DNA of 64,000 bases from assembly GCA_030248195.1 (NCBI GenBank), contig JASAND010000582.1:41351-105350 (forward strand). The letters run 5' to 3'. A program made the translations under genes and the position numbers. Source of the DNA: Trissonchulus latispiculum (lineage: Eukaryota; Nematoda; Enoplea; Enoplida; Ironidae). Numbering within the stretch: position 1 is the first letter of the stretch; every line of letters begins with the position of its first letter. Positions 1,931-52,539 of this stretch are shown here, piece by piece. The notes under the pieces were generated by a model. That model saw nothing but the letters and a program-made list of their open reading frames with translations. It did not search any database and was not told where the DNA came from.

Positions 1931-3609
1931 TAATCTGGTGCTAAATTCCTACGGCCTGGAAAATTTACCAAACGCTTGGCCAAGTTTTTGCATTTAATTT
2001 TATCGAATTCAGCGAACCATCGGCAACGATGCCTTTTAGCTTTCAGACTTTAGCTGTTATAAGCAGCCTTAGCTGACTGATTTTCTGATTAACTTATTCC
2101 GTCTCACAATAATTTGTTTTGTTTGAGATGTTTCATTGTACGTCCGAGCAAATTCCGGCATGAGTAGTTAAACACTATATTGGCAAGTAACTTCTACCAA
2201 TCATTCAGGAAGGGAACGTGTGTTGATAATAATGTGTTTTGTGGACTCAAAATAATTTATTTTTCCAGATGTCTGAGCGACATTTATTAGGTTCATCACC
2301 AAATAACATAGCTTCACTCAACCCTGGAGCCTTAATGTGCGTTCACAGATTTAAGGTGGTGATTCCCTTTGGTCACATAAAGTTTGCACCATTATTACTC
2401 ATTCATTACTTGGAGTTGAGAAACCATTTTTATATCAAAATGTAGCTTGACATTTTCTCTTTTTAATGCATTCCACGAAACTAATGTTGCTTTTCTGAAA
2501 TATTTTTAACACATTTTAGAAGAAGTATAATTTTCCAGAATTTTTGCAGACTCAAGTAAATTTTTTCGCGAGACATCGGTTATATCATTCGATACTTCCA
2601 CCAAATAGCTGGGGACGATTTTTTATTTATTGTAAAGTCGCTCTTTGTTATAGAGAAATAAGCTGAAATGAGTGCGTAACCTGTATTTTGCCTAGTTTTT
2701 CCAAATTTGCCAAACGATTACTTTAGTTAGAAAGCAGCAATCGGGGCAACTAAAAAATCGTCCCTGGGTATATTAGTGCTGAACACATTTGTTCAGTAGC
2801 AGCCCTCCAGCTTGCATGATGAATGCTCCACAATCTTTGGAAACAAATTGGCCGTGTTTTTGCAAAAACTACATTTTTCATGATAGCAGCCTACAGGATA
2901 GCAGTTGGAAGACGATCATGCGTCAGATTATTTGTCCCTGTGAGACCTTCAGAGCGACGCCCTTAGTTTGATTTTACGGCTTGCGTAGTTCAAGAAATGT
3001 TGGATTATTTGATTTCTGCAAAAATGACAAGTTTTCGACACCAAAACAAGAAACTCGGCTATATCTCACGGTAGAGAAAAGCTAGAAACTTGCTTTAAAA
3101 GGCAAAAATGTGAAGCTCAATGAGATCTTTCGAATGAATATAGTCATAACTGTATAGCAGCTGCCAAACGTTCAGAATTTTGGAAAAACCACTCTGACCG
3201 GAAATCTCGAATTTTTGAATCGGGATTGCGCGGAGGGTGTTAGAATGCTAGCAGAACTTATCTCGGAAAGTTTCATCAAATTTCATCTTGATTTACGCCG
3301 CCAAACAACAATATGTGCCCAAAAGCAATCACCACCTTAAGTGTAGACTTCCTACAACGAAAAATGTGCTAAACTTTTAAGAGTAAGCTCTTTTCCCAGT
3401 GCTAAACACAAAAACTTAAGGAAAAAAAGAACATTTAGAGGGCGATAAGAACAATACTAAAATAGTGTTGGAATTGCCTCGCGTACACTGGGAACTACAA
3501 AAAATTAAAGTCGGAGAGGTAAAACAGTCTGAAGCAAACGACGCCTACCCTTATGTAAAGATACAAAACAATATAAGATACATTAGCTAACCAAATGGAA
3601 TGCGGATAA
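1931..3609 (-). other. 3' flank of gene A, homologous to 3' flank of gene D
   Basis: From the words taatctggtgctaaatt onward this DNA matches 49028-49700 downstream of gene D, with shared blocks around gagcaaattccggca, aagttcatcaccaaataa-like words and ggagccttaatgtgc. The copy here is interrupted by the TTAA element at 2351-3340. No gene is seen in it, so the duplicated unit extends well past the poly(A) signal. Confidence 0.75.
2351..3340. mobile_element. TTAA-flanked terminal-inverted-repeat element (990 bp)
   Basis: The left end TTAAGGTGGTGATTCC and the right end, read inverted, TTAAGGTGGTGATTGC form terminal inverted repeats bounded by TTAA, as in piggyBac/Kolobok-type insertions. No transposase frame is visible, so it is non-autonomous. 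Paralogous DNA near gene D (around 49441) lacks the element and carries a single TTAA, which marks this as an insertion. Confidence 0.85.
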
Positions 3610-3615
3610 TTTATT
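3610..3615 (-). terminator. Poly(A) signal of gene A
   Basis: AATAAA on the minus strand lies about 80 bp after the stop codon. It sits in a 3' UTR block (ATGATTGATCAATAAA) shared with genes C and D, which supports it as the true transcript end. Confidence 0.8.
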
Positions 3616-3694
3616 GATCAATCATGATTGTATCATTTAGACTTGTCATTGTATCATTTCAATAAGTTTACTTTTTGAAGTTGTATGATTTCAC

Positions 3695-6149
<2,455 letters not shown>

Positions 6150-6204
6150 TGTTGGATAGATTCTGAAACAAACAGACGACTTTGAAAAGTTAAATATCTA
6201 TCGA

Positions 6205-7110: not shown

Positions 7111-7519
7111 TTACTCTTAAACATTGTATACCATGGGTGAGACGTACTCTTCACATGCTATTCAATAACGTGGGCCTTTCTATTGTCATCTGATACCTAC
7201 CATATCCTTGCGCATTACAGATCCACTTAGGAGAACGTGCTAGAATTTTAGGGGTTTTATGCATTCGAAGTTGTTCATGATTGCAATCATGATTTGTATG
7301 CTGAAGTATCCCTTCCTTAATACCCAACCGACAGAGACCCACCCCCCTGTTAAGGTATGCAAGTATGCCAGTCAGTGAGGCAATACTAATTTTGAACTGC
7401 ATAAGTATGCACTGAGCGCAATGTTTCGAACGAAACGCTCTCTTATAGCAGCAGTGACGTAAACTAAACAATAAACAAATATAATGTCATATGAAGCATG
7501 AAACGATTGTAAAACATAC

Positions 7520-7576
7520 CTGGTATCGCCTTGGATGGAAAATCCTAACCGTTGCCCTGGTGCGGCAGCTTATATA
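7520..7576 (-). promoter_or_regulatory. Gene A core promoter and 5' UTR exon
   Basis: On the minus strand TATATAA (7576-7570) is followed 50 bp later by a splice donor, CCAG then GTATGT, with exon 1 ending at 7520. Transcription probably starts near 7543, giving a first exon of about 24 nt. The sequence TTTTCCATCCAAGGCGATAC between them is nearly the same in B and recognisable in C and D, with the same 50-51 bp spacing in all four. Confidence 0.8.
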
Positions 7577-8480
7577 GGATGCTAGCAGACCAGGTTCATT
7601 TTTCAATTCTATGATCAATTCTGGATTAATAATGATTCAAATAGTAGTAATAATAATGAATAATGATAATAGTAGATTGAAAGTTTTACAATATTTACAC
7701 TGTGTAAAGCTCCAATAATGGTAATGCTGTATTGGAATTTTACAAAATTAACAATTTATAAAGCTTTACATTTCGTACAAATTCATTTATCACTACAAAT
7801 GCTTGCATCAGAGTGGTCAAAAATGCTTGTTTTGCATTTACAAGCGTTTGCACCAGTTTGCTTTTTAGCTTAAATTATGAGTAGCAAGCAAGCCATATGA
7901 TTTTCGAAGCTGTTTAATGTGCCCGATTTATCAGGGATAGGTAGGTATTCAGACTAGAATCATAATTGCATTCCATACCTGGCTTAAAGTAAATAAATTA
8001 TGTAACTCTTTTCTATGCACTTTATAATACTACATACCTGGTAAATAAATTTTAAACAAATACTAGGCTTGCTTATGGTAGCATATATTTGTTTGGAATA
8101 TACATGCTAAGTATTTGTCATTTGCGAGTTTGTAAGTATCCATTATTTTGTAAAATTTTGTTGTAAACAGAACCATCTCTCAAAAATATAAATGGTAGAA
8201 TTCAATAGATCCAACTGATTCAGTACTGAAAACAAGATCAGAATTTACAGTTCGTAGAGTCGGAATAAACGTTACATAATGGTTTCTCCATGTAGTGGGG
8301 CATCAACATGATGACAGCTCTGTGGAGCGATTTCAGAAAAATAAAATGTTGTGGAATCTCGAGTTTTGAAATGAAGGGTTGTCTGAAATGGGCAGATAAT
8401 ACTGAGAACTACAGGTCTAAAGCTTTTAGTTTACAAACACATGTAAATGATTCCATTACTAGCTTATTTTTTTCATGTCA
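7577..8480 (-). promoter_or_regulatory. Conserved upstream region of gene A
   Basis: Blocks here occur in the same order upstream of B, C and D: catttttcaatt, aatgaataatg, aaaatgcttgttttg, catatgattttcgaagc, cttttctatgcactttataa and attcagtac. Conservation across about 750 bp in four paralogs could be enhancer constraint or merely duplication. No other gene is seen in it. Confidence 0.6.
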
Positions 8481-15720: not shown

Positions 15721-15760
15721 AATTGATGCGACATTATCCGACAAAGTGTAATGCACATAA

Positions 15761-15766
15761 TTTATT
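15761..15766 (-). terminator. Poly(A) signal of gene B
   Basis: AATAAA on the minus strand lies about 47 bp after the stop codon, in GGTCAATAAATTAT, which is related to the AATAAA context of the other three genes. Confidence 0.75.
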
Positions 15767-15812
15767 GACCACTTATCTTTATGTAACCATCATTGTATCA
15801 TTTAATTTATAT

Positions 15813-18800
15813 CTAAGCTTCCTCTGCACTTCGCTTTGGCATGCCAGACCTTATAACAAGAGCCCGCTTTGGATTGCCCCGCCGTGTAGGACCTTGCTTT
15901 GGATAACCTCTCTTATTCAAGGATTCGTCGTCGGTGTCACAGTAGTCATAGTAGTATTGCTCACTGTAGTCGTCGTAGTATTTACAGCAGATGTCGTGGT
16001 AGTTGTCATGATCATCCCCATGTTCGTGGTCGTGATAGTAGTAGTCATCGCATGGGTGGTAGTACTCGTCATTGCATTTTGCCAAGCCTATAACAGTAAA
16101 GACGAGGAAAATTTCATGCTTGCTAACTATTTGGTGGATGCTAGCAGCAACAGCCCAATATAGGCAATGCATCAGCACTCACAAGCTAAAACAGGATGGC
16201 CTAAATCGGTGTAAAATAAACTTTAACATCAGCAGAATGTCGTCAAACTGTCGAAGAAATATTTAGCAACAATTCTTAATGCAAACCTTTCCATAAGCTT
16301 TTCTAGAGCCCCTAACACTTTCTGCGCAATATTATAGCTGAAATGAAGTCGCGAAAAAGGGGCTTCAGTTGTTTAATATAGGTATCAAACGATTCAATCG
16401 ATGGCCCGCGGAAAATGCAAAAAATTAAAACATTGCTTCATTAAAACATTGTAAAAATGTTCCAGAAAACCAGCTTTAGGATCATCCCATCCATTAGAAA
16501 GAAAAACGTTAAACTTTGATGTAAAAATGGGAAACTCAAAACAATACATAAGTATTGTTAACAGTCGTTGATGTCTCCATAACGAATCACCAGCTTAATG
16601 TGCTGCTAGCCTTTGTTCTTATTGGGCTGCAAGCTTTTGTATTTTTGTGCCCTAACTAAATGTGCCCTAAATAGTAAGAATTGGCTGACATGTACAGCAT
16701 CTGAAATGATTCTGGATTCCTGAGCACACAAAAATTAATCGTGGAATATTGTGTGAAAGTTTGAAAAGTTGTATTTTTGCCCAAGTTGCTTCAAATTAAT
16801 TAGACCGATTTTGATATTCAATCGAAAGAGCTTATCAAACTTAATAAAGAAATTAATTCGCGGTAGTAATAACTAAATTTATTATGCACTAATTTATTGT
16901 TCAAAGTGGACGTCTCCAAAACATTTACCACCTTAATGTGCTGAGTAGTAAGTGTGGTCACTTCCGCCGCCACTTTCACTATTTCTACCGTAATATATAC
17001 CTATTAATCTGGCATTAAGCCAATCTTTTAATGTTAGCTAAGTGCACCTCAAGCGCACAGCTGTTAGCGATTATTCTCTGCTTGAGGATAAAATCCGTTT
17101 TGATGACGTAACTAAAATTGATTATTCTACATCAGCTAAATGCACAGGCTTTAAATATCATTATTTTATTTTCCAAAAACAACTGACTATTACGTCATTT
17201 TATAATACTATGTAAAGAACTGCCTTATCAGCCTAAGCATCCACCGTAATACCTTTTATTCTGGCATTGACCCCATCTTTTAATGGTAGCTAAAGTGCAC
17301 CACTTGCGCGCGCCTCTTTGCGACTATTCTCTTTTTCACCAAACTTCTGTACTCCTTCCAAACTTAACAACTGTTATTATTTGCTTGCTGTACTTAACAC
17401 CCTTCTAACCCTGATTTTCCATGATGTCTGCCTTTCTATTTTTCTCCCTTTCTTTTACTTCTACTTAACCCCAACACTTTCTCATTAGTCTTCCAGTTTT
17501 TAATCCTGCTATTTTGCCTTCAACTCTAACAGCTTTGCCCCACCCCACCCGTCTTCTTGCTGGGTTTAAGGAACTATTTTACTTTTGGTTCTCTTTTGTC
17601 TCACTCGTCCCTCTTAATTCCAGGAATTTCCTATCTTCTTCATAAATTACCTCCTAAATTTAACCCAAACCGCCGCGCCACTTGTTCGCTTAAATGTACC
17701 TCCCTTTTCTCCTCTTCTATAGTACCAGCTCATCCTCTCCTCAGAAAAGTCCGTCTTCGTTCTTCCACCTGCCGTGTAATTTATCAAAGTTCGCATCTTT
17801 GGTAGCAAATCCCTGAATCAACATCCTTGTTATTTCTAGGCCTTCCATCTCAACAAGTTGGAACGTTTAGATTTAAATCCACAACTGTTGTTCAATTCTC
17901 ATTAACGAACAAGTATTCCACTAATCTATTTCGACAATTTGGTTGTTATCTCTGCTCCCCCCTCCCTTCTCCTCTACCTTAAGTATTTCTCAAACAATTC
18001 AAAGTCCTACCCTCTTGTTTGTTGTTGTCCCAACTTTTCTCCCTTTCCCCTTGTATTAACACAATCATAGCTTACAATTTTCAAAGTTTTAGAAGTTAGC
18101 TCTGTGCAGTATTTTTAAATATTGTTCTGTTCTTCGAAATTTTATTTTTCTTTTCGTTTCTTTAAATTAAAACTGAATTGTTTTTATTTCAACCATCTAT
18201 AGGTTACAAGATTTCTGTAGATTTGCGAACGTTTTGCCCGTATGAAAAAAATTTAACTGATTTTTGAATAACTGCAATTTTTCAGATTTTTTGCAGACTG
18301 AAGTAATTTTTTTCGGGGGACATCGGTTATACCATTCAATACCCCTATCCAACATCCGGAGACACTTTTTCCAAAAACGACATTTTCTAATAGTTACTAA
18401 GAAATCACGCTTCGTTATGGGGAAATTAGCTAAAATGCATGAGCAACCTTGATTTGGCCTATATTATCCCAACTGTTGCAAGCGACCACATTAGTTAGAA
18501 AGCAACAATCGGGTCAACTACAAAAGATCTATATTTCCGTGTAAAACGCAACAGCTAAATGGTAGTCCTCCATTTTGCATAGTGTTTGCTTCACAATCTC
18601 GGAAAAACATTGGTCGCGTTTTTGAAAAATTACATGTTTAAAACTTCGGTCTAGAGGATAGCAATTGGATAACGACCATGCCTGGGATAATTGAACTCTG
18701 CAGGGCCTTTAAACTGATACTTTTGACTTAATCTTGCGGCATGTGTTGCTCAAGAAATATTATCTTATTTCGCAAAAATGATAAGGTTTGATGACAAAAT

Positions 18801-20248
18801 CATAAAGTTGGCTACATCGAAAAAATAGAAGGTTGCTTCAGAAAGCAAAAATGTAGAGCACAGCGAAAGTGTCCAAATGAACATAATTATAGCACTACAG
18901 CTGCTGGGCAAATGACAGAAACGGTTTAAAACTGTCCTGAACGCAAATATAGAATTTTTGAAGCGGGATTGCACGGAGGGTGTTAGCAAGCTGAAATAAC
19001 TGTTTTTTTTAAATCTCGTGAAATTTTAAATTGGGTTTTGCCGTAAACTAACAATATGATACTAAATGGAAGCACCACCTTAATGGACGTTAACAGTAAA
19101 AAACAATAAAAGTTTAGCAAAAAATGCATGCTTTGCTTCTAACATTTTGATTGCGTCGGAGACCTTTCAATGCTTGAGCTCGATAGGGAGAGCAATTAAT
19201 TATCTATCGATTAGTGGCGGTTCTGAGAAAACTCAATCTTGATAGCGCTATGCATTGGAAAGTAAAATTTTCGACTTAGAACAGTTTTCTGCGTTTTTAA
19301 AATATTTATAATGATACCCATATGAGCCCAATTTGATACTTGCAATTCTGACCATTTCCCAAAACCACCATTTCGAGTACTTCGACTACCCTGTCATAGT
19401 GGGTCGACACTATCAAATGCAAATCTGTGAGTCGAGCCCTTCAAAATGAGGCATCACCATCGGTTAACGGGGGGGGGAGGTCTGGGGGAGTTTAAGCCAA
19501 GCCAAGGGGTAAGCAAAAATAGCTGGAAAATAGTTTTTACACTAAACTTTTAGGGTTCGGCTACGGCTTCGCCGGAATTTTTAGCTAAAATTTCTAATAC
19601 TCCAGGAAAATCGGACGAAATTTGGAAATTTTTTCTAAACATTGAAGATTTTGTGGTAAGTTTTTAAAAAACCGCTAATCTTAATAAAATTAGCACTGAT
19701 TTTTCGAAAAGTTTCACAAATTTCTTTTTGAGGTGCAAGACCCTCTGAAAATTTCAGTTCAAACTTCAAGCTACAAGCCCCGTCAAAATTTTCTGGGGAC
19801 AAGCCCCCCAGGATCCGACGCTATGTTAATGTATTGGCTTCACCCATCCCTGTACCTCTTTTTATTTTCGAGATTTAGGGAGTACAGAAATCTGGAGAAA
19901 GAAAGAATAATAATAACAACGGACATACCCAAACTAAAGGGTTGCCTCTTTTCCAGAAAAAGTGGCACCGCAATAAATATTGACTGCAATTTTCAGAGCA
20001 CACCATTTTGGTAGAACTTGCACTACAAAGATTCCCAAAAGTTTCAAGCACGTCTGGAAATTTTTGCTTTGCCACCTAACCCTCCTCAGAGGGCTGCTTT
20101 AATTAGCTGAAGCAATGTTAACCGAAAGACTTCGTTTAAACGTTCAGAGCTTCTGAGTTCTGAACAGAGCTTTCGTAACACTTTCCATATCTTCAACAGT
20201 CCGCGAGATAAGTGAGAAGGAGTCATTATGCATTGTTATGTTATTATT

Positions 20249-20335
<87 letters not shown>

Positions 20336-20401
20336 TCTAGTCTCTTTACCTGCCAGCATGACCACCAAAAAGAATACGCCAATAATTGTTACTTGCTTCA
20401 T
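15813..20401 (-). CDS. Gene B: secreted Tyr/Asp/His-rich, Lys/Arg-rich protein, 108 aa
   Basis: The coding sequence joins 20401-20350 to 16087-15813 across a 4.3-kb phase-1 intron (donor GTAAAG, acceptor TGTTATAG). Exon 2 gives MKQVTIIGVFFLVVMLA, identical to gene A. Residues 21-75 form an acidic block rich in Tyr, Asp and, unlike its paralogs, His. The cluster HDHEHGDDHD spans 36-45, with six histidines at 28, 36, 38, 40, 44 and 48, which could bind divalent metal (inference). Cysteines are at 22, 30, 51, 52 and 67. Residues 76-87 are the family motif KRGYPKQGPTRR, and the basic tail is shorter and ends SAEEA. Upstream DNA is nearly identical to gene A, yet the mature exon is very different from A's. 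Function is unrecognised; secretion is strongly implied. Confidence 0.86.
16500..17340. repeat. Repeat debris in intron 2 of gene B
   Basis: Two diverged direct copies of a block containing CTGGCATT, ATCTTTTAATG and TAGCTAA.GTGCACC lie at 16989-17085 and 17243-17335. Two CTTAATGTGCTG ends lie at about 16597 and 16927. This part of the intron has no counterpart in gene A. The following 17340-18260 is pyrimidine-rich, without a recognised gene. Confidence 0.45.
18270..19084. mobile_element. TTAA element in intron 2 of gene B, left end lost
   Basis: The body matches the element at 4070-4894. The right end, read inverted, is TTAAGGTGGTGCTTCC with TTAA at 19081-19084. The proper left end is not present; homology starts at gaataactgcaatttttcag. 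It is complementary in its damage to the copy in gene A, which keeps the left end and lacks the right. Confidence 0.7.
19470..19835. repeat. Dispersed repeat with G/C runs (copy 2)
   Basis: This is the counterpart of 5205-5560 within the duplicated unit. It starts at a G run (19471-19478) and ends in the conserved CGACGCTATGTTAATGTAT tail. A small extra inverted word, ggctacggcttcgcc, is present here near 19560. Confidence 0.55.
20240..20332. repeat. (TTA)n microsatellite in intron 2 of gene B
   Basis: About 30 TTA units, interrupted once by GTA near 20249, lie in the same position beside the exon 2 donor as in gene A, with a different length. Confidence 0.97.
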
Positions 20402-20999
20402 TGTTGGATAGATTCTGAAACAAACAGACGACTTTGAAAAGTTAAATATCTATCGGACATCGGCTGACTAAAGGCTCAAGGCTCAAACTCTCCAAGGTCA
20501 GTGAAACGTGATGATTACATTTCCTTCAGCAGTTATCCCATTTTTTGAACCAACGAAACTGATAAACCCTTCAGCTTTATATAATTATGTTACTGAGAAA
20601 TAGTTCTTTCTAAGTATATAAAAATTATCTAGTTCTATTCAGACAATGTCTTAAAAAGTTGTCAACTATAGGAACCCTGATCAAAAATGCAAGGTCTTCA
20701 TTAATCCTACAAAATACCTTACATTGTTGTCTTATGTTAAGAGATTACTTGAACGGAACTAGATAATTATTATACGGTTAAAAGGTGCTATTTTTCGGTA
20801 ATGTAGGAATAAAAAATCATTACTGTGCGTTGTATCTGGCTCAAGTCAAAGTAATTAGTTTGCCGAAAACGCCTAACTTAGTAAAATGTCGTATGCGGTC
20901 ATGCTGAGAAGCTCACATCCCTTGAGCTTTCCCCAAGATTTCGAATTTAATGTTTCGATCATAGTGCAGGCTTAATACTTAGAAACAGTCAGTGTCTTA

Positions 21000-21348
21000 A
21001 GCCTGATTCACACTGGTGTCTTATGTCTTATGTCTTTTGTCTTATATCTTACTCATGTCTTATGTTTTATGTCTTAAGACAGACAGAACCGTTCACACTG
21101 CTGTCTTATGTCTTTTGTCTTAGGCAGCACATTTGATCCTTTCATCCAATCAACTTGACAATGGCTAGACTAGCTGCAATGTGATTGGTTTATCCCTCAA
21201 AACATAAGACAAAAGTTGAGCCTAGCTCAAGTCTACCTTAAGACAAAAAGACATAAGACATAAGACATAAAACACCAGTGTGAACGCCTTAAGACATAAG
21301 ACACAAGACAAAATACATAAGATATAAGACATCAGTGTGAACCAGGCT
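21000..21348. mobile_element. Harbinger-like miniature element in intron 1 of gene B
   Basis: Ends AGCCTGATTCACACTGG and inverted AGCCTGGTTCACACTGA are flanked by TTA on both sides (20997-20999, 21349-21351). It is orthologous in position to 6749-7110, so the insertion predates the A/B duplication. Confidence 0.75.
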
Positions 21349-21739
21349 TTACTCTTAAACATTGTATACCATGGGCGAGACGTACTCTTTACATGCTATT
21401 TAATAACGTGGGCCTTTCTAATGTCATCTGATACCTACCATATCCTTGCGCATTACAGATCCACTTAGGAGAACGTGCTAGAGTTTTAGTGGTTTTAAGC
21501 ATTCGAAGTTGTTCATGATTGCAATCATGCTTATATGCTGAAGTATCCCATCTTCACCGAACCGACAGGGACCCCCCTGTTAAGGTATGCAAGTATGCCA
21601 AACAGTGAGGCAATGCGAATTTTGAACTGCATAAGTATTAGTGTTTCGACCAAAACGCTCTCTCATAGCAGCAGTAACGTAAACTAAACAATAAACAAAT
21701 ATAACGTCATATGAAGTATGAAATGATTGTAAAACATAC

Positions 21740-21796
21740 CTGGTATCGTCTTGGATGGAAAATCCTAACCATTGCCGTGGTGCGGCAGCTTATATA
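21740..21796 (-). promoter_or_regulatory. Gene B core promoter and 5' UTR exon
   Basis: TATATAA (21796-21790) is followed by the donor CCAG/GTATGT with exon 1 ending at 21740, 50 bp downstream. The sequence is nearly the same as in gene A, with a probable start near 21763. Confidence 0.8.
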
Positions 21797-23176: not shown

Positions 23177-23581
23177 CTTGTGGTGGTTAGTGTTTTAGAA
23201 CGGCTAGGTTGGACCGGCCGACCAGCCAAGAAATATTACCGACCGGCCGTTGGCCGTTCTTGGCCGGCGGCTAACCAGACACATTTCCAGTGCCTGAAGG
23301 ATGTCTGAGCTAACAAATTGTAAAATATTTACACTAAGCATTACAAAGACAATGAAAACGGTTTTTACTGTATATATTTGGATAAAGTGTCACACTCAGC
23401 CTTGGATTGCTTTTGTAAACATTTACTACTCTGATCAAGTTGCAATCTTAACTACAAATGTTTGAGTTAGACCGGCGGTCATCCAGGCGCCCGCCGGCCA
23501 ACGGTCGGCCGTCGGCCGATCGGGCATACAGTTAGGCGGGCCCGGGCGCCTGCTTTCCGGCCGTTCTAAAAAACTTGTGGT
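23177..23581. mobile_element. hAT-like miniature element (second copy)
   Basis: It has the same GC-rich inverted ends and the same CTTGTGGT direct repeats (23177-23184, 23574-23581) as 9246-9649, so it was present before the unit duplicated. Confidence 0.6.
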
Positions 23582-23804
23582 GGCATTAAAGCTGTTCGCT
23601 CTTTGGCTTGTCTTGTAATGGGATTACTTGGAATATTGTTAAATTGGAATTTAGTCCCGTCCTTTTGATTTCTTTATTTTGTAATTTCTGTTATTCTAAT
23701 CTAAGCTATTTTATTCTTTTCTGTAGACAAGATCCAATTCCAACATACGTTTCTTTCTCTGTTCCTTCTAAGTAATGTTATGTTGGACTGCATGAGTGAA
23801 TTGT

Positions 23805-24811: not shown

Positions 24812-25049
24812 AACCCGTGCAATTACAGACATGTTTTCCTCTTTGTCTGTTGCTTACTGAAACCTATGTTAGGACTTAAACCAACTAAAAGTACCACCGT
24901 TTCCGAAAGTGTTGCTTTTTGTTCGCAAAAAGAAAGTAGCATAGCTTTCAAAGCGTGCACCGCAATAGGCTTTAAGAGGAAAAGTTTTCTAACCGGCCAA
25001 AGAACGTTCAGTGGTGGACCTTCAGGTTTTGTGTCAAGCACAGCCATAG

Positions 25050-28933: not shown

Positions 28934-28939
28934 TTTATT
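28934..28939 (-). terminator. Poly(A) signal of gene C
   Basis: AATAAA on the minus strand lies about 50 bp past the stop. It is preceded by ATCATGATTGATC, as in genes A and D. Confidence 0.8.
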
Positions 28940-28988
28940 GATCAATCATGATTGTATCATTTAGAAAAATGCCACTGTACGATTGCAC

Positions 28989-30246
28989 TTATTCCAGACT
29001 TTCTTTCTCACTGCGCTCTGGTTTGCCACGCTTCGTAGCCCGCTTTAGTAGACTACTTCGCTTTGCCGGGCCCCGCTTCGGACGACCTCTCTTGTAGTCG
29101 TAATCGTAGTAGTAGTATTCGCCACACAAGCCACTGTAGTCGTAGCCGCCAGAGTAGTACAATTCCTCACAGCACGAGTAGTAGCAGTCGTCCCCATAGT
29201 ACTCGCAGTAGTCGCAGGGATGGTAGTAATCGTCATCGCAGTCTGCCAAACCTAAAACTAAATACCAGGAAAATATCTCCTTTGTTTTGTTTTGAAAGAA
29301 AGGTTTGGAAGAAAATTTGGCTGATTGCTTTAGTATTGGCTTTAGAGTTTAGAAATTGGAAGCTTACAGAAGCTTGCCTTCTAATAAGCTTTAACGAATG
29401 ACTATTTACTAAATAGATATTAATAGCAAAAGTCCTCTATACTTCAGCCCTCATAAGTCAGAACAGATTAAACGAGTGAACTAAGTAGTACTCCCTATTG
29501 AAGAAATATGTAGTGTTTAAAATTTTAGTGTTGAAACCAAGGTTTCATTTTGCCTAATACCAACATTTCCAAAATACGTTCTTTTAGTCTTCTAACATCT
29601 TTTGAGCAATCCAAAAACGATACTAAACTAGACATTTTTGGCATATTTTGTTTTTGTGACAGCTGAGGAGTCACTGATTGTTATCTACATTTTTGATTCT
29701 GAAAAGGTTTCCTAGCTTCTCTATTAAGTCATCAGCGCACAAAATAGACTCGTTGACTTTTTACTTAAAAGTTTGAAAATTTTTTCCTGTTAACCTCATT
29801 GGATTAGCTTCGAATTAATTAAACCGAATTAATTAAATTAAATTAATTAAATTAAATTAATCAATCCAAACAGATTGTTCAACTAAATAAGCTTAATTTT
29901 GAGACGACTTCCTTGTCTTTAAAATTCCGCTAGATAAAGCTTAAGCTAGAACCAAAAGTTTAGGCTACTAAACCAGGCATTTTCCCATTTTCGGATGATA
30001 GCTAATTGCAGCAAGCAACGATGAAATATATCTAAATTTGGAAATGTATACTTAACTACGTATTCTGTGTAAACTTTAGCTTAATTGCTTGAGCCTATCT
30101 GAAGAACTCCTAAGCAGGGACTTGTCCGATTTGTCTTTCAATCAAATGGGCAGCCTATTCTATAGAATCGCTTTTGGCTATTCTTTTCTTTTACCTGCGA
30201 ACATTACCACCAAAAAAAGTGCGCCAGTGATCATTACTTGCTTCAT
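28989..30246 (-). CDS. Gene C: secreted Cys/Tyr/Asp-rich, Lys/Arg-rich protein, 104 aa
   Basis: The coding sequence joins 30246-30195 to 29251-28989 across a 943-bp phase-1 intron (donor GTAAAA, acceptor TTAGTTTTAG). Exon 2 reads MKQVMITGALFLVVMFA, diverged from A and B mainly at residues 5-10. Residues 21-70 form the acidic Tyr block with seven cysteines (22, 30, 33, 40, 44, 45, 60), the most in the family, so disulfide-linked folding is more likely here. Four consecutive tyrosines lie at 63-66. The motif KRGRPKRGPAKR spans 71-82, and the basic tail keeps KRGKPERSE near the C-terminus, as gene A keeps KRGKPEHS. Function is unrecognised; a small secreted protein is predicted. This is the most compact gene body of the four apart from its long intron 1. 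Confidence 0.88.
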
Positions 30247-30427
30247 TGTTGGATAGATTCTAAAAAGAAAGAATCGGCTTTGAACAATTAAATATCTATA
30301 GGTGGTCTGACAACAGGCTCTGTCTTTTTCAGACCACAGAAATTCGTTGACCTTTTTTGGTAACCGTTAGCCCGTTTTTATAAACAATGAAAAGGACAGA
30401 GCATTCCGTAAAGTTATCATCTTTTAG

Positions 30428-33176: not shown

Positions 33177-33289
33177 GCAGTACTGGTGGGCAATCGCATG
33201 ACTTCCAAACAAACTGTGCTACTTATAAATAGAAATCTGAACTAAAGTAATATAATGCCAGATAAGGTAAAGCTTAGCTGTAAACGTAC

Positions 33290-33347
33290 CAGGTATAGTC
33301 TTGGATGAGAACTGCTAGCCCATTGCCCTGGTGCAGCTACTTATATA
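33290..33347 (-). promoter_or_regulatory. Gene C core promoter and 5' UTR exon
   Basis: TATATAA (33347-33341) lies 51 bp before the donor CCTG/GTACGT, with exon 1 ending at 33290. The exon keeps CATCCAAGACTATACCTG, parallel to the other genes. Confidence 0.78.
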
Positions 33348-34093
33348 GGATGTTTGCAAATTATGTTCATTTTTCAATTTTATGATTTATTCCTGATTAA
33401 TAATAGTTTTAATAATATTAAAAATGAATAATGGTAACAGTGCATTGGAATTTTGGAATTTATTTATAAAATTTTGCATGTTTGCAGTTTCTATTAACAT
33501 AATGTCTGCTGCAGAGTGGATCAAAATGCTTGTTTTGGATTTATTTTGGTTAATAGCTTATGCAAGCTGAAATCATTGAGTTGAGTAAAGCATGCCATAT
33601 GATGTTCGAAGCATTTTAATGGGTTTCATTTTTCAACGGTAAGCATTCAATCATGCTACACTCATTTTGCATACCATACTTGACTTGAAGTAAATAACTA
33701 ATGCAATTCTTTTCTATGCGTTTTATAATACAACATACGAATCTGGTACAATAAATTTCACATAAATTCTAGTTCTGCTTATGATAGCATGTATTTATTT
33801 GAAACTAGAAATGCTTCGTATTTGTCATTTGCGTATAAATAGAACTTAATGATTTTATCTCTCAAAGTATGAATGGTTGGATTCAATAGATCAAATCGAT
33901 TCAGTATTCAAAATAAAGCCAGAATATGCAGTTCGTAGAATTAAAGTAAACTGTAACGAAAGAGGCTGACTAACGGTCAACCTTTTCGTCAAACATATTC
34001 CCAATTTTCGTTGGAAATTGCAGGAAACTTTTCTATCCAACGGTTGGCAATCAATTCCACTGTCGAGATTGGACTGAGTAAACTGGTCTCTGA
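33348..34093 (-). promoter_or_regulatory. Conserved upstream region of gene C
   Basis: It carries the same ordered blocks as upstream of A, B and D (catttttcaatttta, aatgaataatgg, aaaatgcttgttttgg, catatgatgttcgaagc, attcagtattcaaaat). It stops where the foldback at 34101 is inserted. No gene is seen. Confidence 0.55.
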
Positions 34094-40680: not shown

Positions 40681-41732
40681 CTACTTGTCTGGGTAGAAAG
40701 GTTTCAGCCGGTTCACATGAACATTCTCAACCGGGGGATCGGTACGAAGGGTCGATTGGATTTCACAATTTGTAGGAGATATCATGTTAGTAACCCGAAA
40801 AGGTCCCTCAAAGACAGGCAGGTACTTGCGGCTTGTACCTTTCGGGATATTCGCCTGAGATACATCCTTACATATTAACATTCCCGCCTTGTACTCGACC
40901 ACTCGGACTTTGTTATCGTACGCAGCTTTTCTTTTCTGCAAAACTTGTCTCATATGCTCCGTAACTAACTCTCTAGTATATTTCAGACGAACTCACAAAT
41001 CTTGAACATAACTAGGGTTGAAATCTCGAACTCGCGGAGCAGGAGTAGTCAGAAAATTATCAGGTAGTATGGAGATTCCCCAGTGGAGGGGCTGCCCTAT
41101 ACGCAAAAGGAACCCAAGGCAATAACTCATCCCACTCCTTCTGAAAAGTATACATCGATTTCCGCAACATACGTTTTATAGTCCCATTAAGCCGTTCGCA
41201 CGCCCCGTTGGATTGGGGGCGGTAGGCGGTCGTCCGAACCTTTTTGGTACCCATAAGTTGACATAAATCAGTTAGCAGAGCAGAACAAAACGGGTACCTC
41301 TGTCTGTCAGAATCTCACGCGGTGGCCCATGTACTGCCACAATATTTTCAGCGTAAATCTTTGCAATTGTCGAAGTTTGCTCGTTCTTCATGGGAAATGC
41401 CCAACTCCATCTAGTGAAGAAGTCAACAATCACCAGGACTCTACAATTGCCCTCCCGGGTAATAGGGGCGTGCATCACATCTATGAACAGCCTCTCAAAT
41501 GGTGCCTCCACTGGGGCAAAATTTTTGAGATAAGCCTGGGGCTTCATCGGACCCGGGTTACAAGCCGCACATACCGGACGCGCCTGCACATATTTTGCAC
41601 AACCAGTAGCCAACGTTTTCCAATAGTGTTTTCTGGCGGCAACCCCAAACATCTTATCTTTCCCATTATGACAACCTCCCAAAAGCTCGACATGACATTC
41701 CTTCAAAACATGATGATAACACCCTTTGCGTC
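40681..41732 (-). pseudogene. Ty3/gypsy integrase region, broken
   Basis: The minus-strand frame from about 41732 has the integrase His/Cys zinc region (GCHNGKDK, then CAKYVQARPVCAAC) and catalytic Asp motifs (FIDVM, ILTDRGT). The next frame (41060-41254) has the Glu motif GACERLNGT. The last (40681-40953) has a C-terminal domain with GPFRV. Frameshifts separate the three parts, so no integrase can be made. Confidence 0.85.
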
Positions 41733-42257
41733 TATCAAAAGATATTGAGCACACAAACCTAGCAGGATTCCGTGGATTCGTTCAAGCCAGGTATTGCCTC
41801 AAAATGATTCCACGAAATTGAGCTGGCATGGTCGGAATTGCGCTGTCCAGTTTTTGTCAAAACCAGATTCCAGTTTCGTAGATGGAATCCTGCTGACTGA
41901 GATAAGGCTCGTAAACCTTTTGCTGAATTAAGCTATGTTTTTGGTAATCAAGCTTCGATATGTCTTGAACTGGGTAAGACACGTAAGTTTTAAACTTAAT
42001 TGAACCAACGTTTTTGGATTTGAGCTTAAATGTTTCTTTGACTGGGCTAAACCTTAAACTTATTTTACGCTGGAACAGCTGGAAACCTGCTGCCAAGAAT
42101 TACCTTTAACCAAATTCCACGGTATTGAGCTGGATTGGTAGGAATGCAGCTGGCTGGTTTTTGCCTCAAAAAGATTCCGTGGAATAAAGCAAGCATAATT
42201 TTGATGCGCCCCATCCGCGGAATCTTGCTTGGTTTGTGTACTCAATATCTTTTGATA
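41733..42257. mobile_element. Inverted-repeat element inserted between RNase H and integrase
   Basis: Its ends TATCAAAAGATATTGAG (left) and the same sequence inverted (CTCAATATCTTTTGATA, right) continue as repeats containing GATTCCG.GGA. Internal words attcca/tggaat recur in both orientations. It separates retroelement coding sequence on either side. Confidence 0.75.
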
Positions 42258-43775
42258 GGTGCACTTTGGGGACAAAAACTAGACGAGGGGGATTTTTCGC
42301 TTTTCCCCCTTATGTGAGAGCCAGAACCTATACAATAACCCATTTTCGACCTCGTAATTACCCGAATGTTTACGTATATAATTGAACAACTTTTGGTCCT
42401 GCGGCACCGTCTTGTCCACCAAAAATTTCATCATAGCTGAAGCAAATTCGTCCGCAGCCAGGGCTTGTTTCCAAATTTCCTGGGGGGCATTTCGAGGCAG
42501 GAGCGGAGGAGGGTTACCCTCCCCTTCCGTCTCCCCTTCCGGAGCCTCCCCCACAGAGTCATCGGATTCTTCGAGTTCTTCAATAGCCAAAACAACTAAG
42601 GAGCCCACAAAATCCGGAATTTGGGGATGATCTGAAAAAGCACCCCAAAGTGGAGGATTTCGCGACAAAGCATCAGGAGCCCCATTCGTTATTCCCGGAC
42701 GCTGGATTACTCGAAAACGAAAAGATGCCAGAAAAATCGCCCCTGGGCCGTACGCGGGATAGCCTGGTCCCCCCACATGTATTCCAAAGCCTTGTGATCG
42801 GTAATAACGTCAAATTCATTCAAAATGAGGTAATGCTGGAAATATGAAATTCCGAAATAGATTGCGAGGTCCTCCAATTCGGTGACATGGTAATTCTTTT
42901 CCGGTGCTTGTAAAGCCCTGGCTGCATAAACGACCGGATGAAATTTTTCGGCCTCGTCCTGCTGCTGCAGTACAGCAGCAATGCCTTGATAACTGGCATC
43001 CGTAGCTAGAGTAAACTTTTTAGCAAAATCAGGGTAGACAAGAACAGGTGCCGTCACTAGTTTTTGCTTTAAAGTTTCGAAAGCTGCTTGACACGCCCCG
43101 TCCCACACAAAATCGGCATCCTTCCGCGAAAGGCGGTTGAGAGAATGAGCAGTTTTCGAAAAATTTGATACAAAGCGACGATAGTACCCGGCCAATCCCA
43201 AAAAAACTCTGTACGTTCTTGACATTTTGAGGTACCGGGAACTGTTGGACAACCCGAATTTTTTCAGGATCAGTAGGAATTCCCGTTTTTAACAAGACGT
43301 GACCCAAAAATGGCATTGACGATTTTCTAAATTCACATTTTGAGAGTTTCAAAATAACGTGCTCTCTCGAACATCGAAGAAAAACTTCTAAAAGTCTTGT
43401 CAAATGTTCTAGCTGCGTAGCACTGGTTACTAGAACATCATCAATATAAACAATAAATCCGCCCATGATGCTGTCAATAATGTGTTAGAACGTGCTAGGG
43501 GCATTACACAACCCGAAAGGCAAGACTTTAAATTCAAGTAGCCCCGCATGGGTGATGAAAGCGGTTTTTTCGCGATCAGGTGGATAAATCGGAATTTGGT
43601 GGAAACCCGAAGCCAAGTCTAGTTTTGACAAAATACAATGCCCCAGAATAGCTTCAAAAAGACCATGAATATATGGAATTGGGTAACAGTCCTTTTTCGT
43701 AACTGAATTCAATTTCCTATAATCGACACACAACCGCCAATCCGACGTTGCCTCATTAGAAATTTTTGGAAGCCG
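42258..43775 (-). pseudogene. Ty3/gypsy reverse transcriptase C-part and RNase H, broken
   Basis: 43485-43775 encodes fingers/palm motifs (LCVDYRKLNSVTKKD, LDLASGFHQIP, LPFGLCNAPSTF). 43029-43466 encodes the catalytic YIDD box and the following thumb, and 42707-43252 encodes an RNase H-like segment (LATDASYQGIAAVLQQ). 42279-42776 continues toward integrase. Stops and shifts divide the frames. Confidence 0.9.
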
Positions 43776-45064
43776 TAAATATTTGAATCTGCACGATCCT
43801 ACATGACGTCTCTGCCTTCCTCCAATGATCTCAGCTGCCTGCCCTGGATCTCAGCCTCCCTCCAATGATCTCAGCTGCCTGCCCTGGATGTCAGCATCCC
43901 TCCAATGATCTCAGCTGCCTGCCCTGGATCTCAGCATCCTTCTAATGGTCTCAGCTGCCTGCCCTGGATTTCAGCCTCCCTCTAATGATCTCAGCAGCCT
44001 GCCCTGGATCTCAGCCTACCTCCAATAATCTCAGCTGCCTGCCCTGGATCTCAGCCCCCCTCCAATGATCTCAGCTGTTTGTCATAGATAGGACCAAATG
44101 AGGAGATTGCCTTCCAATTTTATTACAACCAACAAATGTTAACGTCAACCATCAAAACAGGCTAAGTTTTGCATAACTGTCAATGCTGTTAGAGTTGTTC
44201 AATATTGTGGGTAACGAATGAAAGTATAATTTGGTAGGCAAATTTTATATATCCAAGGACAATCACGCGTTTTGTAAATACAAATTTGCTGATACCCACT
44301 AAGGGATTTAGGAAGTCTGAATCGTATTCACATCTGTGGTGTTGTGCAGTAGACTACGAACATCGACTTTGTACTAAGTAGTTGCTATGCTCTAAGGATT
44401 GTTCAATATCTATAACCAAGCCAAAAGCACTGTTAATTCACAACTGCATTTAGGTAAACCGAATATGGTCAGTTGAAATACATAAATTTTTGTTTTGACA
44501 GAATTTGAGGTACAAAAGTAAATAAAGGCTAGTATTTTAGACTAGATAAACAGAAACGAAGATGTTGCAAATCAAGTCTACCCTGAGCCTGAATAAAACG
44601 ACAGTGCACCTGTTACTACAACCAGAAGACTCGTTCTGCCACCGTCCAAGAAACTCCGCCCAAACAAATACGATTATGAGATGAATCTATATGTACCATT
44701 ATGTTGGTATTCATCATGTTCTGTTATGTATTTGATACGCCCCCTATCAAACTTTGTGGTCCATGAGGACCAGCCTTTTCGATCACCAATCTGGCGCCAG
44801 CTGACGCCATCTTTAGGAATCCGTCCCCCCTCCTTGTCATCAATTAACCGAGAGTTAAGGGGAGGCCGCCTTCGGGTGGAGCTGCCGAGGTGCGTTCATC
44901 CATAGCCGGTGATGGGCAAATCTCCATCCTTGCGAAACGCATCGGGTAATTGTTAAAGACAATTATTCGGTGTCAGCTAATCCCCAGTTAAATTTATAAA
45001 ATCAACATCAAGCTGGCACTACTCCTAACCGGTGTAAGACCAACTGGAGTGGGGCGTACAGAAA
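43776..45064. mobile_element. Insertion splitting the reverse transcriptase
   Basis: RT coding stops near 43775 and resumes near 45065, so this 1.29-kb segment is foreign. It holds a 40-bp tandem array, AT-rich DNA (44090-44750) and a GC-richer end (44760-44960). I could not identify its termini or class. Confidence 0.6.
43811..44083. repeat. 40-bp tandem repeat, nearly 7 copies
   Basis: The unit built of CAATGATCTCAGCTGCCTGC and CCTGGATCTCAGCCTCC recurs exactly every 40 bp with one to three substitutions per copy. Confidence 0.95.
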
Positions 45065-47890: not shown

Positions 47891-48207
47891 TTAACAATTG
47901 TTAATAACACTTATTAACTTAACAAACTTAATACATATTTGGCTGCAATCACGTTTGTAATGACAAAACTGCACCTATATGTTCAACATATAAATTGCTT
48001 CTGAAAAAGTTTAAAATTCTAGTCATCAGAGTCCTATCTTTATCACGTATTCGGCTGCTGCATCAGAACGCCCATTTTCTAGCTACTGAAATCTGTAGTC
48101 ATACGCCCTTAACCCTACACCGCTAGGGAGACAGCTTCCTGTCTTCCTCAGGCTTAATCATGTCTTCCATGTCTTCTTTTCGGAAATATCGCATAGTCTG
48201 TTATCTT

Positions 48208-48491
48208 TGTAGCGCTTCTACCAGGGCTGGTGGACCAAGACGTAACCAGGGACAAGCCCGAACGGGAGGCGTCAGGCACCCTCGTACCCACGAAACCAGG
48301 ACCTAGAAGAGAGAAGGGAAGAGGGAGGTTCAGCTTTTCTCACACCATTGAAAGTAAAGAATTGGCCCAGCCGGGGATCGAACCACGGCCCTTCTAATCC
48401 GGAATCACACATGCTACCGCTACACCACAGGGCTATCTGCTGAACTCCCGTTACAGGCTTATCAATCTTTCCTATGCCTGCTTCCCTTACA
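48208..48491 (-). repeat. 3' LTR with tRNA-like domain
   Basis: This 284-bp copy carries the A-box-like TGGTGTAGCGGTAGCATG and the B box GGTTCGATCCC on the minus strand, between acceptor-like GCCCTG and CCGGCTGGGCC sequences. The anticodon region has diverged. Confidence 0.8.
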
Positions 48492-48702
48492 TCTCCCCCG
48501 GGTTTCAATTAAGACGCGTCCCGCGGCTTACTCAACTCGGAATAGAACCGAGAGCGCATCCAGCGCAGGGCATTCTGAGCCCAAGGGATCCGTGCTCCCC
48601 CGACACACGTTCCAGACCCCTTTAGATCCAACCAATCAGAAGCAACTACGGGGGGATCAGAGACAGGAGTCCAATCCGGGCCATCCTGGCAGCCTCGCCA
48701 CA
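48492..48702 (-). pseudogene. Internal remnant of the miniature LTR element
   Basis: A GC-rich minus-strand frame of 64 codons (to a stop at 48509) runs from just inside the 5' LTR end. Its C-terminal part (WAQNALRWMRSRFYSE) looks like genuine coding sequence, perhaps the end of a former polyprotein. I recognise no domain. It ends just before the polypurine tract. Confidence 0.5.
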
Positions 48703-48971
48703 TGTAGCGCTTCTACCAGGGCTGGTGGATCAAGAAGATACCAAGGACAAGCCCGAACGAGAGGCGTCAGGCACTCTTGTGCCCACGAAACCAGGACTTA
48801 GAAGAGAGAAGGCAAGAGGGAGGTTCAGCTTTTCACTCACCATTGAAAGTGGCCCAGCCGTGGATCCAACCACGGCCCTTCGGATCCGGAAACAGACATG
48901 CTAACCGCTGCACCACAGGGCCATCAGCTGAACTCCCGTTATCAATTTTTCCTGTGCCTGCTTCCCTTACA
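48703..48971 (-). repeat. 5' LTR with tRNA-like domain
   Basis: This 269-bp copy ends in TGT...ACA and carries TGGTGCAGCGGTTAGCATG on the minus strand. Its B-box position reads GGTTGGATCCA, a degraded form of the GGTTCGATCCC seen in the other two copies. The differences from the 3' LTR show it is not a recent insertion. Confidence 0.8.
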
Positions 48972-49027
48972 TCTTAGCTAATTTTCATGCGAATGAAAAT
49001 TTTGCAATCGTTAACACTGACGGAAAA

Positions 49028-49700: not shown

Positions 49701-49706
49701 TTTATT
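49701..49706 (-). terminator. Poly(A) signal of gene D
   Basis: AATAAA on the minus strand within ATCATGATTGATCAATAAA lies about 90 bp after the stop; the same block is found in gene A. Confidence 0.8.
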
Positions 49707-49791
49707 GATCAATCATGATTATTTCATTTAGACATGTCATTCTATCACTAAATTCATTTAATCAGTATTGCATTTTCGCTCATTCCTGCTT

Positions 49792-50737
49792 TTACTGCTC
49801 ACTGCGCCTGGGTTTGCCAGGCTTCAGGTTAGCCCGCTTTGGATTGCGTCGCCTTGTAGGACCTTGCTTTGGACTACCTCTCTTGTACTCGTCGTCGTAG
49901 TAGTAACAGTCGCCGTAGTAGTAGTTGCCTTCTTCGTCGTAGTATATGCAGTCGTAGTAGTCGTAATCGTCTTGGCAATTAACGAATCCTAAAACAATGC
50001 AATCAGGTGAAGTTGGTGGTAAGGAGTATAATGCTATGTAGGGTTCACAGCTGGTAAATAGCAGGAGTTTACTTTAAAACAAACTTGCAGGCGGTTGATG
50101 TTTATGAAATGGATGCTAGCAATAAAAACAATATGTATATAAATAAATGGAGCTAATTTGTACTAACGGACTGCCGCTGCGGTTTTCTTATAATCATAAC
50201 TCCATTTTGTCTACAGTAGGATGCGTTTGCCGTATGACAACCTTTTAGCTACTCAAGGATCACTATGCAAGATCTAAAACTAGTATTGCCACAATTTTGC
50301 TTTCAAACAAACTTGCACGTTGATAGTTTATTAAATGGATGCTAAACAATGAAAACAGTAAATGAAACAAGCCAATTTGAATGAACGGGGGCTCTCGCTG
50401 CAATTATATGGTACCACACACAACCAATTTTAGTTTAATTGATTGTGTCAAGGTAAAAATGTGATCTTAAAAACGTTTTCATAAAAACAACTGCTACCAA
50501 TTTGTTTTGAACACGGGTTTTCTCGGAACCGCCTCAGTAAAATGTCCAATTATTCTACAAAACTGTTGTTTAAGTTAGTAAATTCCACTTAACTCTAAAT
50601 CTTTTCTGTATCCAGTTTTTTTCCATAAAGATAAAATAAGACTAAAGCTTTTGGAACTGATATTTTTGTTTTTGATTCTCCTTACCTGTCAGCATGACCA
50701 CAAGAAAGAGTACGCCAATGATTGTTACTGGCTTCAT
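49792..50737 (-). CDS. Gene D: secreted Tyr/Asp-rich, Lys/Arg-rich protein, 82 aa
   Basis: The coding sequence joins 50737-50686 to 49988-49792 across a 697-bp phase-1 intron (donor GTAAGG, acceptor TTGTTTTAG). Exon 2 gives MKPVTIIGVLFLVVMLT. The third exon has no ATG in frame, so it is invisible to a simple ORF search. Residues 21-52 are almost the same as in gene A (QDDYDYYDCIYYDEEGN, then YYY, GDC, YYYDDEY), with cysteines at 22, 31 and 45. Residues 53-64 are KRGSPKQGPTRR, followed by RNPKRANLKPG and an early end, KPRRSEQ. Compared with A it has one NLKPG unit and none of the extra NLKRG repeats, so it may resemble the ancestral, unexpanded form. Secreted; function unrecognised. Confidence 0.87.
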
Positions 50738-50841
50738 TGTTGAACAGATTCTGAAACAAACCGACGACTTTTCTAACAATTAAATATCTACGGACTATCT
50801 ATGTCCGAGTACAGACTGAGACACTTCAAGGTCAGTTAAAT

Positions 50842-52034
50842 CAAGAGTTTATAATACCAAGAGTAGATGATAGGAAGAGTACGACACCGTACCCTTGCTA
50901 GTGTAATTGGCCTGTCAGATGTCGGAGGTACGTCGCCGGAGGAACTAAAATGAATTTGATTGGCTAATCCACCTGTGAAATTGTGTATTTCGTGAGAAAG
51001 CGGATTCGGGGGGCTCAACCTTGGAACGTTGTTAAGGCTGGTAGGCGTGACTGAAATACATTTGATTGGTTACTTAGCTATAGTAACCGTCCACAGTGCA
51101 TGGCAATAGCAGCAGCGAAGCAGCCCATCCAATGCATTTCAGTTCAACAGCATATAAACACACGCTTAACAACGTTAAGCTGAGCCCCCCGAGATCTCGG
51201 GGGTCACCTTATACACGTAATTTTGACATAAGGTAGGATTAGCCAATCAGATTCATTTTAGTTCAAACGCATATAAACACATGGTTAACTGTGTTAACCG
51301 TGACCCCCCCCCCGAGATTTCGGCATTAATGTTCCGAGCATATGACAGGCCAATTACACTAGCAAGGGTACGGTGTCGTACTCTTGCTATTATTAACTCT
51401 TGATAATACCAAGAGTAAGACACTCAGCTCTTCCTAATAGAATAAGCTTGCAAGATGCTCGAAACATTAAAGCCGAAATCTCGGGGGGGCTTCTCAGCAT
51501 GTAAACATACAACACTGACATTTTTCAAAAACCGGCGTTTTCAACAAATTAAATACTATAACTTGAGCTAGGAAAGTCGTACAGCAATGATTTTTATATC
51601 ATTATGTTGCGTAGAACAAGATCTTTTTAACGATGTAAAAATTATATAGTTAGGTTCAGGCAATCTCTTACAGAACCGGCAATAAAACATCCTTTCCGTG
51701 CAAATTATAGGAATTTCATTATTTCTTCAAAATGATGTACATTGTTGCCGGATTTGTAAGAGATTGCCTGAACCAAACTACATAATTTTTAGATGGTTAA
51801 AAAGATCTTGTTCTACGCAACATAATGATATAAGAATTATTGCTGTACGGCTTTCCTAGCTCAAGTTATAGTATTTAATTTGTTGAAAATGCCGGTTTTT
51901 GAAAAATGTCAGCGTTGCATGTTTACACGCTGAGAAGCCCCCCCCGAGATTTCGGCCTTAATGTGTCGAGCATCTTGCAAGCTTATTCTATTAGGAACTG
52001 CTGAGTGTCTTACTCTTGGTATTATAAACTCTTG
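50842..52034. mobile_element. Foldback element in intron 1 of gene D, with a second one nested in it
   Basis: The outer ends CAAGAGTTTATAATACC and inverted CAAGAGTTTATAATACC are flanked by GTTAAAT on both sides (50835-50841, 52035-52041). The arms pair around 51700 (agatctttttaacgat against its inverse). It carries the nested element near its left end. The family member at 57418-57997 shows the uninterrupted form. Confidence 0.87.
50875..51385. mobile_element. Nested foldback element (511 bp)
   Basis: The left arm AAGAGTACGACACCGTACCC and the exact inverse at the right end, GGGTACGGTGTCGTACTCTT, extend through TTGCTAGTGTAATTGGCCTG. Inner C runs and GAGATCTC words sit near the middle. It splits the left terminus of the outer foldback. 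Confidence 0.8.
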
Positions 52035-52482
52035 GTTAAATGTAGTAATCACATTTTCTTCCTCCGTTAACTCGATTTCTTGAATCAAGGAGCCGATAAA
52101 TCCTTCAGTTTTCTATGAATGTTGCCGAGACATTAGCTCTTTCTAAGCATATAAAAATTATCTGGCTCTATTTAGGTAATGTCGTAAATATCCGTCAACG
52201 ATAGAAATCATATTCGAAAACACAAGGAATTTCTTTCAAATCCTACAATATACCGTTGTTGCCTGACTTTTGCAGAGGTTACCTGAACCAAGAGTACATA
52301 ATGGAATAAGAGTAGGAAACGCTTGCACTACCATGTACTAAACATGCTAGACAAGACAAGGACCCGACCGTATGTTAATGCATGCGCATAAAGGTGTGAA
52401 CTGAGCGCATTGTTCCGAACAAAACGCTCTAGGTAGGAAACTAAACTAACATATGTTAGGTATAGCTCAGATGAAAACGTAC

Positions 52483-52539
52483 CAGATTTAGTCTGGGATG
52501 GGAACTGCTAGTCATTGCCCTATTGCAGCTGCTTATATA
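52483..52539 (-). promoter_or_regulatory. Gene D core promoter and 5' UTR exon
   Basis: TATATAA (52539-52533) lies 50 bp before the donor TCTG/GTACGT (exon 1 ends at 52483). The exon keeps CATCCCAGACTAAATCTG, parallel to gene C. Confidence 0.78.

Follow-up and report, generated by a model that had tools for sequence, protein, structure and literature searches.

What do four small, similarly built genes on one contig encode, and do they belong to any described family? We addressed this question in a window of 64,000 bases, positions 41351-105350 of the 105350-base contig C391 (JASAND010000582.1; GC content 39%), where a first-pass annotation had described genes A, B, C and D, each splicing a signal-peptide exon in phase 1 to one exon that encodes an acidic Tyr/Asp/Cys block and then a basic block. 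The observation was confirmed: all four are real-looking genes on the minus strand, and a fifth member of the family, gene E, lies on the same contig and strand outside the window.

The splice pairs proposed between the signal-peptide exon and the last exon (6098/3951, 20350/16087, 30195/29251 and 50686/49988) all have GT..AG borders and join in phase 1, and the open proteins from A, B, C and D comprise 102, 108, 104 and 82 amino acids, respectively. While these splices stood, the two-exon description needed amending, as the signal-peptide exon is exon 2 and a short non-coding exon 1 was found 1.3-3.0 kb upstream. The promoter motif TATATAAG begins at 7576 (A), 21796 (B), 33347 (C) and 52539 (D); exon 1 ends at the 57th-58th base from its start and is followed by the donor GTATGT or GTACGT. 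Exon 2 comprises 65 bases, follows a TTTCAG or TTTTAG acceptor and opens with AATCTATCCAACAATG (with a two-base difference in D), intron 2 measures 0.7-4.3 kb, and the last exon carries the stop, with AATAAA downstream of it. The presence of TATATAAG, the donors and AATAAA in A-D bears out the matching splice sites, TATA boxes and poly(A) signals reported earlier. The features are as follows, in window numbering.

7520..7576, minus strand: gene A, TATATAAG and non-coding exon 1, donor GTATGT
6098..6162, minus strand: gene A, exon 2, TTTCAG acceptor, 13 nucleotides of 5' untranslated region, ATG at 6149
3610..3951, minus strand: gene A, exon 3, stop 3697-3695, AATAAA 3615-3610
21740..21796, minus strand: gene B, TATATAAG and non-coding exon 1
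20350..20414, minus strand: gene B, exon 2, with the same coding bases as in gene A
15761..16087, minus strand: gene B, exon 3, with its stop (to 15813) and AATAAA (from 15766)
33290..33347, minus strand: gene C, TATATAAG and non-coding exon 1
30195..30259, minus strand: gene C, exon 2, TTTTAG acceptor, signal peptide
28934..29251, minus strand: gene C, exon 3, with its stop (to 28989) and AATAAA (from 28939)
52483..52539, minus strand: gene D, TATATAAG and non-coding exon 1
50686..50750, minus strand: gene D, exon 2 (signal peptide)
49701..49988, minus strand: gene D, exon 3, with its stop (to 49792) and AATAAA (from 49706)
7511..8390 (A), 21731-22584 (B), 33282-33939 (C) and 52474-53355 (D), minus strand: conserved upstream (promoter) block, from self-comparison and alignment

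In gene A, exon 2 codes for 17 codons plus 1 nucleotide of the signal peptide, and exon 3 for its end, the acidic Tyr/Asp/Cys block and the basic block. Upstream of exon 1, D is 72% identical to A and B and 71% to C over about 800-920 aligned bases, C is 66% identical to A and B, and A and B, which are recent duplicates, share about 91%.

Gene E was found in the contig stretch before the window start (C391:1351-41350, covered as L004-L007). As it had not been used in defining the family, it provides independent confirmation of the layout.

L007:4587, minus strand: gene E, TATATAAG; the signal-peptide exon ends at L007:3471
L006:9057-8105, minus strand: gene E, last exon; AATAAA at L006:8049

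Its promoter matches the others in pieces only, with 73-79% identity over the roughly 110 bases around the TATA box plus the first exon, and further upstream it is 66% identical to that of A over 410 bases. The gene encodes 334 amino acids, in a frame that stays open though 166 of the 334 codons sit one step from a stop. After the N-terminus comes a short Cys-containing part, then a run of Tyr/Asp/Cys units of about 31 amino acids, the last full one being CGDEYYHPCDYYGGDYCCEYYDYNGNSYYDY, and then the basic tail of 39 residues, KRGSPKQGPSKRGNLKRGNRKQGSPKRGKPKGIVEKVQN. Split by hand, this run came to seven pieces, each 26-39 residues long and together making 219. With the N-terminal Cys part counted in, the acidic block comprises 272-273 residues with 83 Tyr and 31 Cys, equivalent to 30% Tyr and 11% Cys over the block as a whole. 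By eye, the N-terminal part with its C-x3-C ... C-x-C pattern resembled a CS-alpha-beta fold; the AlphaFold model, made without an alignment, gave a helix followed by two strands at low confidence (mean predicted local distance difference test score 54, predicted template modelling score 0.34), and no conclusion was drawn from it.

The five proteins share one plan, a hydrophobic N-terminus, an acidic Tyr/Asp-rich block with Cys and a short basic tail, and from the N-terminus as read by eye they are putatively secreted. In A-D the acidic block is 30-53 residues long and 12-17 of these are Tyr, and the pentapeptide YYHPC at the start of those of B and C recurs in E. The tails carry the core KRGxPK(Q/R)GP(T/A/S)(R/K)R, which in A-D is conserved more strongly than any other stretch of the mature protein. 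The first-pass annotation placed the first cysteine at residue 22 (C22) in every protein, which is correct for A-D; gene E has Ser there, so C22 is not universal. Under the -3/-1 rule, signal peptidase would cut just after C22, which therefore probably closes the signal peptide and is absent from the mature protein. Without C22, the acidic blocks of A, B, C and D have 2, 4, 6 and 2 Cys. A split of biased charge into an acidic and then a basic part, as first described for the four genes, is seen in all five (acidic/basic: A -11/+15, B -17/+8, C -13/+10, D -11/+11, E -48/+13). The further idea that the two blocks are charge-complementary, as in a coacervate protein, fits A and D, roughly C and less well B, but the balance is not kept in E and is therefore not the family's general principle.

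Protein-level constraint was assessed by neutral simulations, 4000 per pair, for four of the six pairs of A-D. Amino-acid differences as few as those seen had neutral P values of 0.02 (A with D), <1/4000 (B with C), <1/4000 (A with C) and 0.006 (C with D), so that all four pairs tested have changed less in amino-acid sequence than expected under neutral drift. The absence of stops alone was weak evidence (P=0.22, 0.06, 0.07 and 0.08 for the same pairs). The ratio of nonsynonymous to synonymous substitution rates was 0.24-0.59 over all six pairs with NG86, and 0.42 and 0.56 for the two of these pairs with a YN00 estimate.

Another possible origin of such exons is a transposon. The whole-assembly searches covered 733.8 Mb in 21732 contigs. 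A six-frame search with protein D, not exhaustive because the signal exons of four genes escaped it, returned seven matches, namely six exons of A-E and one unrelated match (C12380). A 22-base pattern around the start of exon 2, allowing up to three mismatches, occurred in 11 places, compared with one place for the backwards control; A-E matched at 0-2 mismatches, and none of the remaining six places (L024-L029, all with three mismatches) runs from an ATG into a signal peptide. Accordingly, L024-L029 were rejected as relatives (L025 enters a hydrophobic stretch, but without an ATG), as was L014. No further family copies outside A-E were found in these two non-exhaustive searches, and the five paralogues are clustered on one contig. 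The absence of further copies argues against the exons being transposon parts, and we rejected a transposon origin on finding no dispersed exon copies, in searches that can miss copies. A broken retrotransposon does lie between C and D (40681-43850, minus strand), with reverse transcriptase, integrase core and integrase C-terminal parts in separate open reading frames (ORFs). According to Pfam searches of 10 window ORFs at 36.3-47.0 kb, these pieces at about 40.7-43.9 kb contain none of the exons of A-D, and no match came from the ORFs at 36.3-39.6 kb or from those at 46.7-47.0 kb.

The history of the cluster probably includes a reshuffling of exons. In the self-comparison, gene A shares the segment 4245..10235 (minus strand) in pieces with 18259-25545 of B, at 90.6-96.2% identity apart from two short far-end pieces at 83% and 80%. 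This segment takes in the promoter, exons 1 and 2 and most of intron 2; the last exon lies outside it. The last-exon region of A is 72% identical to that of D over 729 aligned bases, and 74% to that of B over only 127. As A and B share their 5' part but have unlike last exons, and the YYHPC of B is common to C and E, gene B, or else A, is probably a hybrid formed by duplication or conversion, with the breakpoint inside intron 2. A repeat of about 820 bases was also observed in intron 2 of A (4069-4893) and of B (18243-19083) and downstream of A (2350-3164), with distant copies at 68-69%.

The statement that no described family has this layout was supported in the sources searched. Pfam gave no family above cut-off for A-E (best for gene E, DUF5904, E value 0.022) and NCBIfam none for A-D (best, EppA, E value 0.19), and the Protein Data Bank (PDB) held no relative of proteins D and E (best E values 0.16 and 0.2). 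In a set of 5.8 billion proteins, alignment A1 drew 1212 candidates, none at E≤0.01, and gene E drew 6583 candidates with no relative among them; both results are weak, as the set possibly holds few spliced animal proteins. In the literature searches no listed title described the family, and six of its sequence strings matched no paper. The five-gene family thus looks undescribed.

From the composition of the proteins, we tentatively favor, at somewhat less than even confidence, a secreted matrix protein that is rich in Tyr, linked by disulfides and equipped with a basic tail for assembly. The acidic block would make up most of the material, as a Tyr-rich, disulfide-linked module whose length has shifted between 30 and 273 residues as repeats were gained and lost. 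The basic tail would assemble or anchor it by charge, or be removed at KR during maturation. The product could be a component of mucus, adhesive, cocoon or another extracellular coat, synthesized perhaps in one gland cell type, given the similar promoters. The shared three-exon layout, the conserved promoter, the protein-level constraint and the absence of detected copies elsewhere support the matrix protein, and a block as expanded as that of gene E looks like a product rather than a mere neutralizing propiece. Several points weigh on the other side. The argument for a material draws only on composition; conservation within the mature protein is higher in the basic core than in the acidic block, so the basic part could be the active product; and mature A has a net charge of +4 and E of -35, giving no single charge rule. 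Moreover, the hand count of Cys in gene E is odd, differences between A and D fall 10/8/12 over the codon positions with no marked third-position excess, and those among the five comparable units of E fall 37/22/42, a slight bias. A broader form of the idea, which we hold to be rather doubtful, is a lineage-restricted two-block secreted material of a little-studied animal, possibly an acoel, in which Tyr/Asp/Cys modules are lengthened by in-frame repeat gain on a constant basic tail, and members of net charge +4 to -35 could mix as a multi-component secretion.

Among the materials first proposed was a tunic component. L018 (G000:C17523) carries, at about 1.7-7.95 kb, a mitochondrial DNA insert with a broken frame in a longer nuclear-looking contig, with nad3, cytb (reverse strand), nad2, cox1, nad4L (reverse strand), nad1 and cox2 on both strands. 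Pfam confirmed ND3, CYTB, COX1, ND1 and COX2 (five of the seven pieces), and ND2 and ND4L were recognized by eye without a match. Conserved COX1 positions, compared with mitochondrial code tables, read best with ATA as Met, AGA/AGG as Ser and TGA as Trp, which suggests the invertebrate code and speaks against echinoderms, flatworms, cnidarians and ascidians. A tunicate tunic component is therefore unlikely, because AGA/AGG read best as Ser rather than Gly. The gene set of the insert resembles that of an acoel: these seven genes also adjoin one another in Symsagittifera roscoffensis (PMC2973942), and in Archaphanostoma ylvae nad4l is found beside cox1 (PMC5431833). A hand calculation put the chance of an identical set at about 12/792, but gene order and strands differ, the comparison was picked with the data already in view, and the contig carrying the insert could be foreign, so an acoel host is no more than a lead. 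An 18S pattern match was, by reading, a fragment of only about 30 bases, and Rfam gave no match in 6501 bases.

Known secreted proteins offer partial parallels, all drawn by description. Diatom silaffins have a signal peptide, an acidic domain and a basic Lys/Arg part that is cut at dibasic sites and whose repeats form the long part; A-E are like them in the order of acidic then basic, whereas here the acidic Tyr/Cys part is repeated and the host looks like an animal. The mollusc KRMP and shematrin proteins, mussel foot proteins and trematode eggshell proteins are likewise secreted, Tyr-rich, Lys-rich and lineage-restricted, but differ in block order and motifs, and no Pfam family matched. Coral SCRiPs (PMC2652719) are also taxonomically restricted and Cys-rich, but the code of the mitochondrial insert is not cnidarian-looking.

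The strongest rival to the matrix protein, because the antimicrobial peptide families of Hydra are described with similar features, is a host-defence (antimicrobial) precursor, in which the acidic block would silence the cationic tail until cleavage at (Y/N)KR-G freed a Lys/Arg/Pro/Gly-rich peptide; we consider it unlikely. A dibasic KR precedes the basic core in five of five genes, and that core is the most conserved mature part in A-D. The expansion of gene E, with 273 residues (-48) ahead of a 39-residue tail (+13), speaks against such a precursor, as to our knowledge antimicrobial propieces are not usually expanded so far, and the tails of A-E have no Cys and are not amphipathic by eye. 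According to passages of PMC10945409, the Hydra families, among them periculin and arminin, are small secreted precursors with a signal peptide, bipartite charge, cysteines and tandemly clustered, taxon-restricted paralogues, with no homologues reported there beyond the lineage; a Tyr-rich repeat expansion like that of gene E is not among the features described there. In our family, A-E are clustered in one locus and the hydrophobic N-terminus, with 17 codons on its own exon, reads by eye as a putative signal peptide; Hydra itself as host is at odds with AGA/AGG as Ser and ATA as Met in the insert, which are unlike the cnidarian code.

A neuropeptide- or hormone-like precursor, in which cleavage at the dibasics KR on one side and (K/R)R on the other would free a peptide of 13-14 residues, GxPK(Q/R)GPxxRxx(P/L), and leave the remainder as spacer, appears improbable. 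A second dibasic does follow the core by 13-14 residues in all five genes (RPRR, NPKR, LLKR, NPKR and NLKR in A-E, respectively), but the peptide contains internal dibasics, lacks an amidation Gly and occurs in full only once, and the acidic block, Tyr/Cys-rich and built of repeats in E, is unlike a spacer. Less probable again is a secreted tyrosine-sulfated or metal-binding effector, for example an inhibitor gripping a basic surface through DY-rich sulfotyrosine: many Tyr are flanked by Asp/Glu, an acidic context known as a sulfation setting, but neither a folded partner domain nor any established family of inhibitors was found (Pfam for A-E, PDB for D and E), and the repeat expansion in gene E does not fit. 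That these are non-functional, decaying simple-sequence ORFs is very improbable, for although TAC/GAC-rich DNA yields long open frames on both strands and missing stops count for little, five copies retain the promoter motif, two introns, the frame and the poly(A) signal, and amino-acid changes stay below neutral expectation in the four pairs tested.

Other elements were noted on the same contig. Three tRNA-derived repeats, probably a short interspersed element (SINE), lie at 48208-48494, 48703-48974 and 54399-54685 of the window with 84-91% mutual identity; they gave three Rfam tRNA matches of 32.6-34.6 bits, and ARAGORN called one tRNA-Arg. Long self-inverted palindromic stretches, perhaps fold-back elements or like miniature inverted-repeat transposable elements, occupy 51307-52034, 55647-56311, 57397-58018 and 60955-61360, and a tandem array of about 22 copies of a 35-base unit, with a 105-base higher order, occupies 1171-1932. 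Ahead of the window, an ORF at L005:746-1783 matches HtrL_YibB (E value 4e-11), and another at L006:2290-3093 (about 23.6-24.4 kb of C391), with fragments of RNase H and integrase upstream of it in L005, matches NADAR weakly (E value 7e-5, under the gathering score).

Secreted families restricted to one lineage are common, so how interesting this one is hinges on its function and host. The probable exon hybrid B would show how such families reshuffle. What looks to be an undescribed animal family, with acidic blocks of 30 to 273 residues set on one conserved tail, may serve as a natural experiment in the growth of charge-block proteins.

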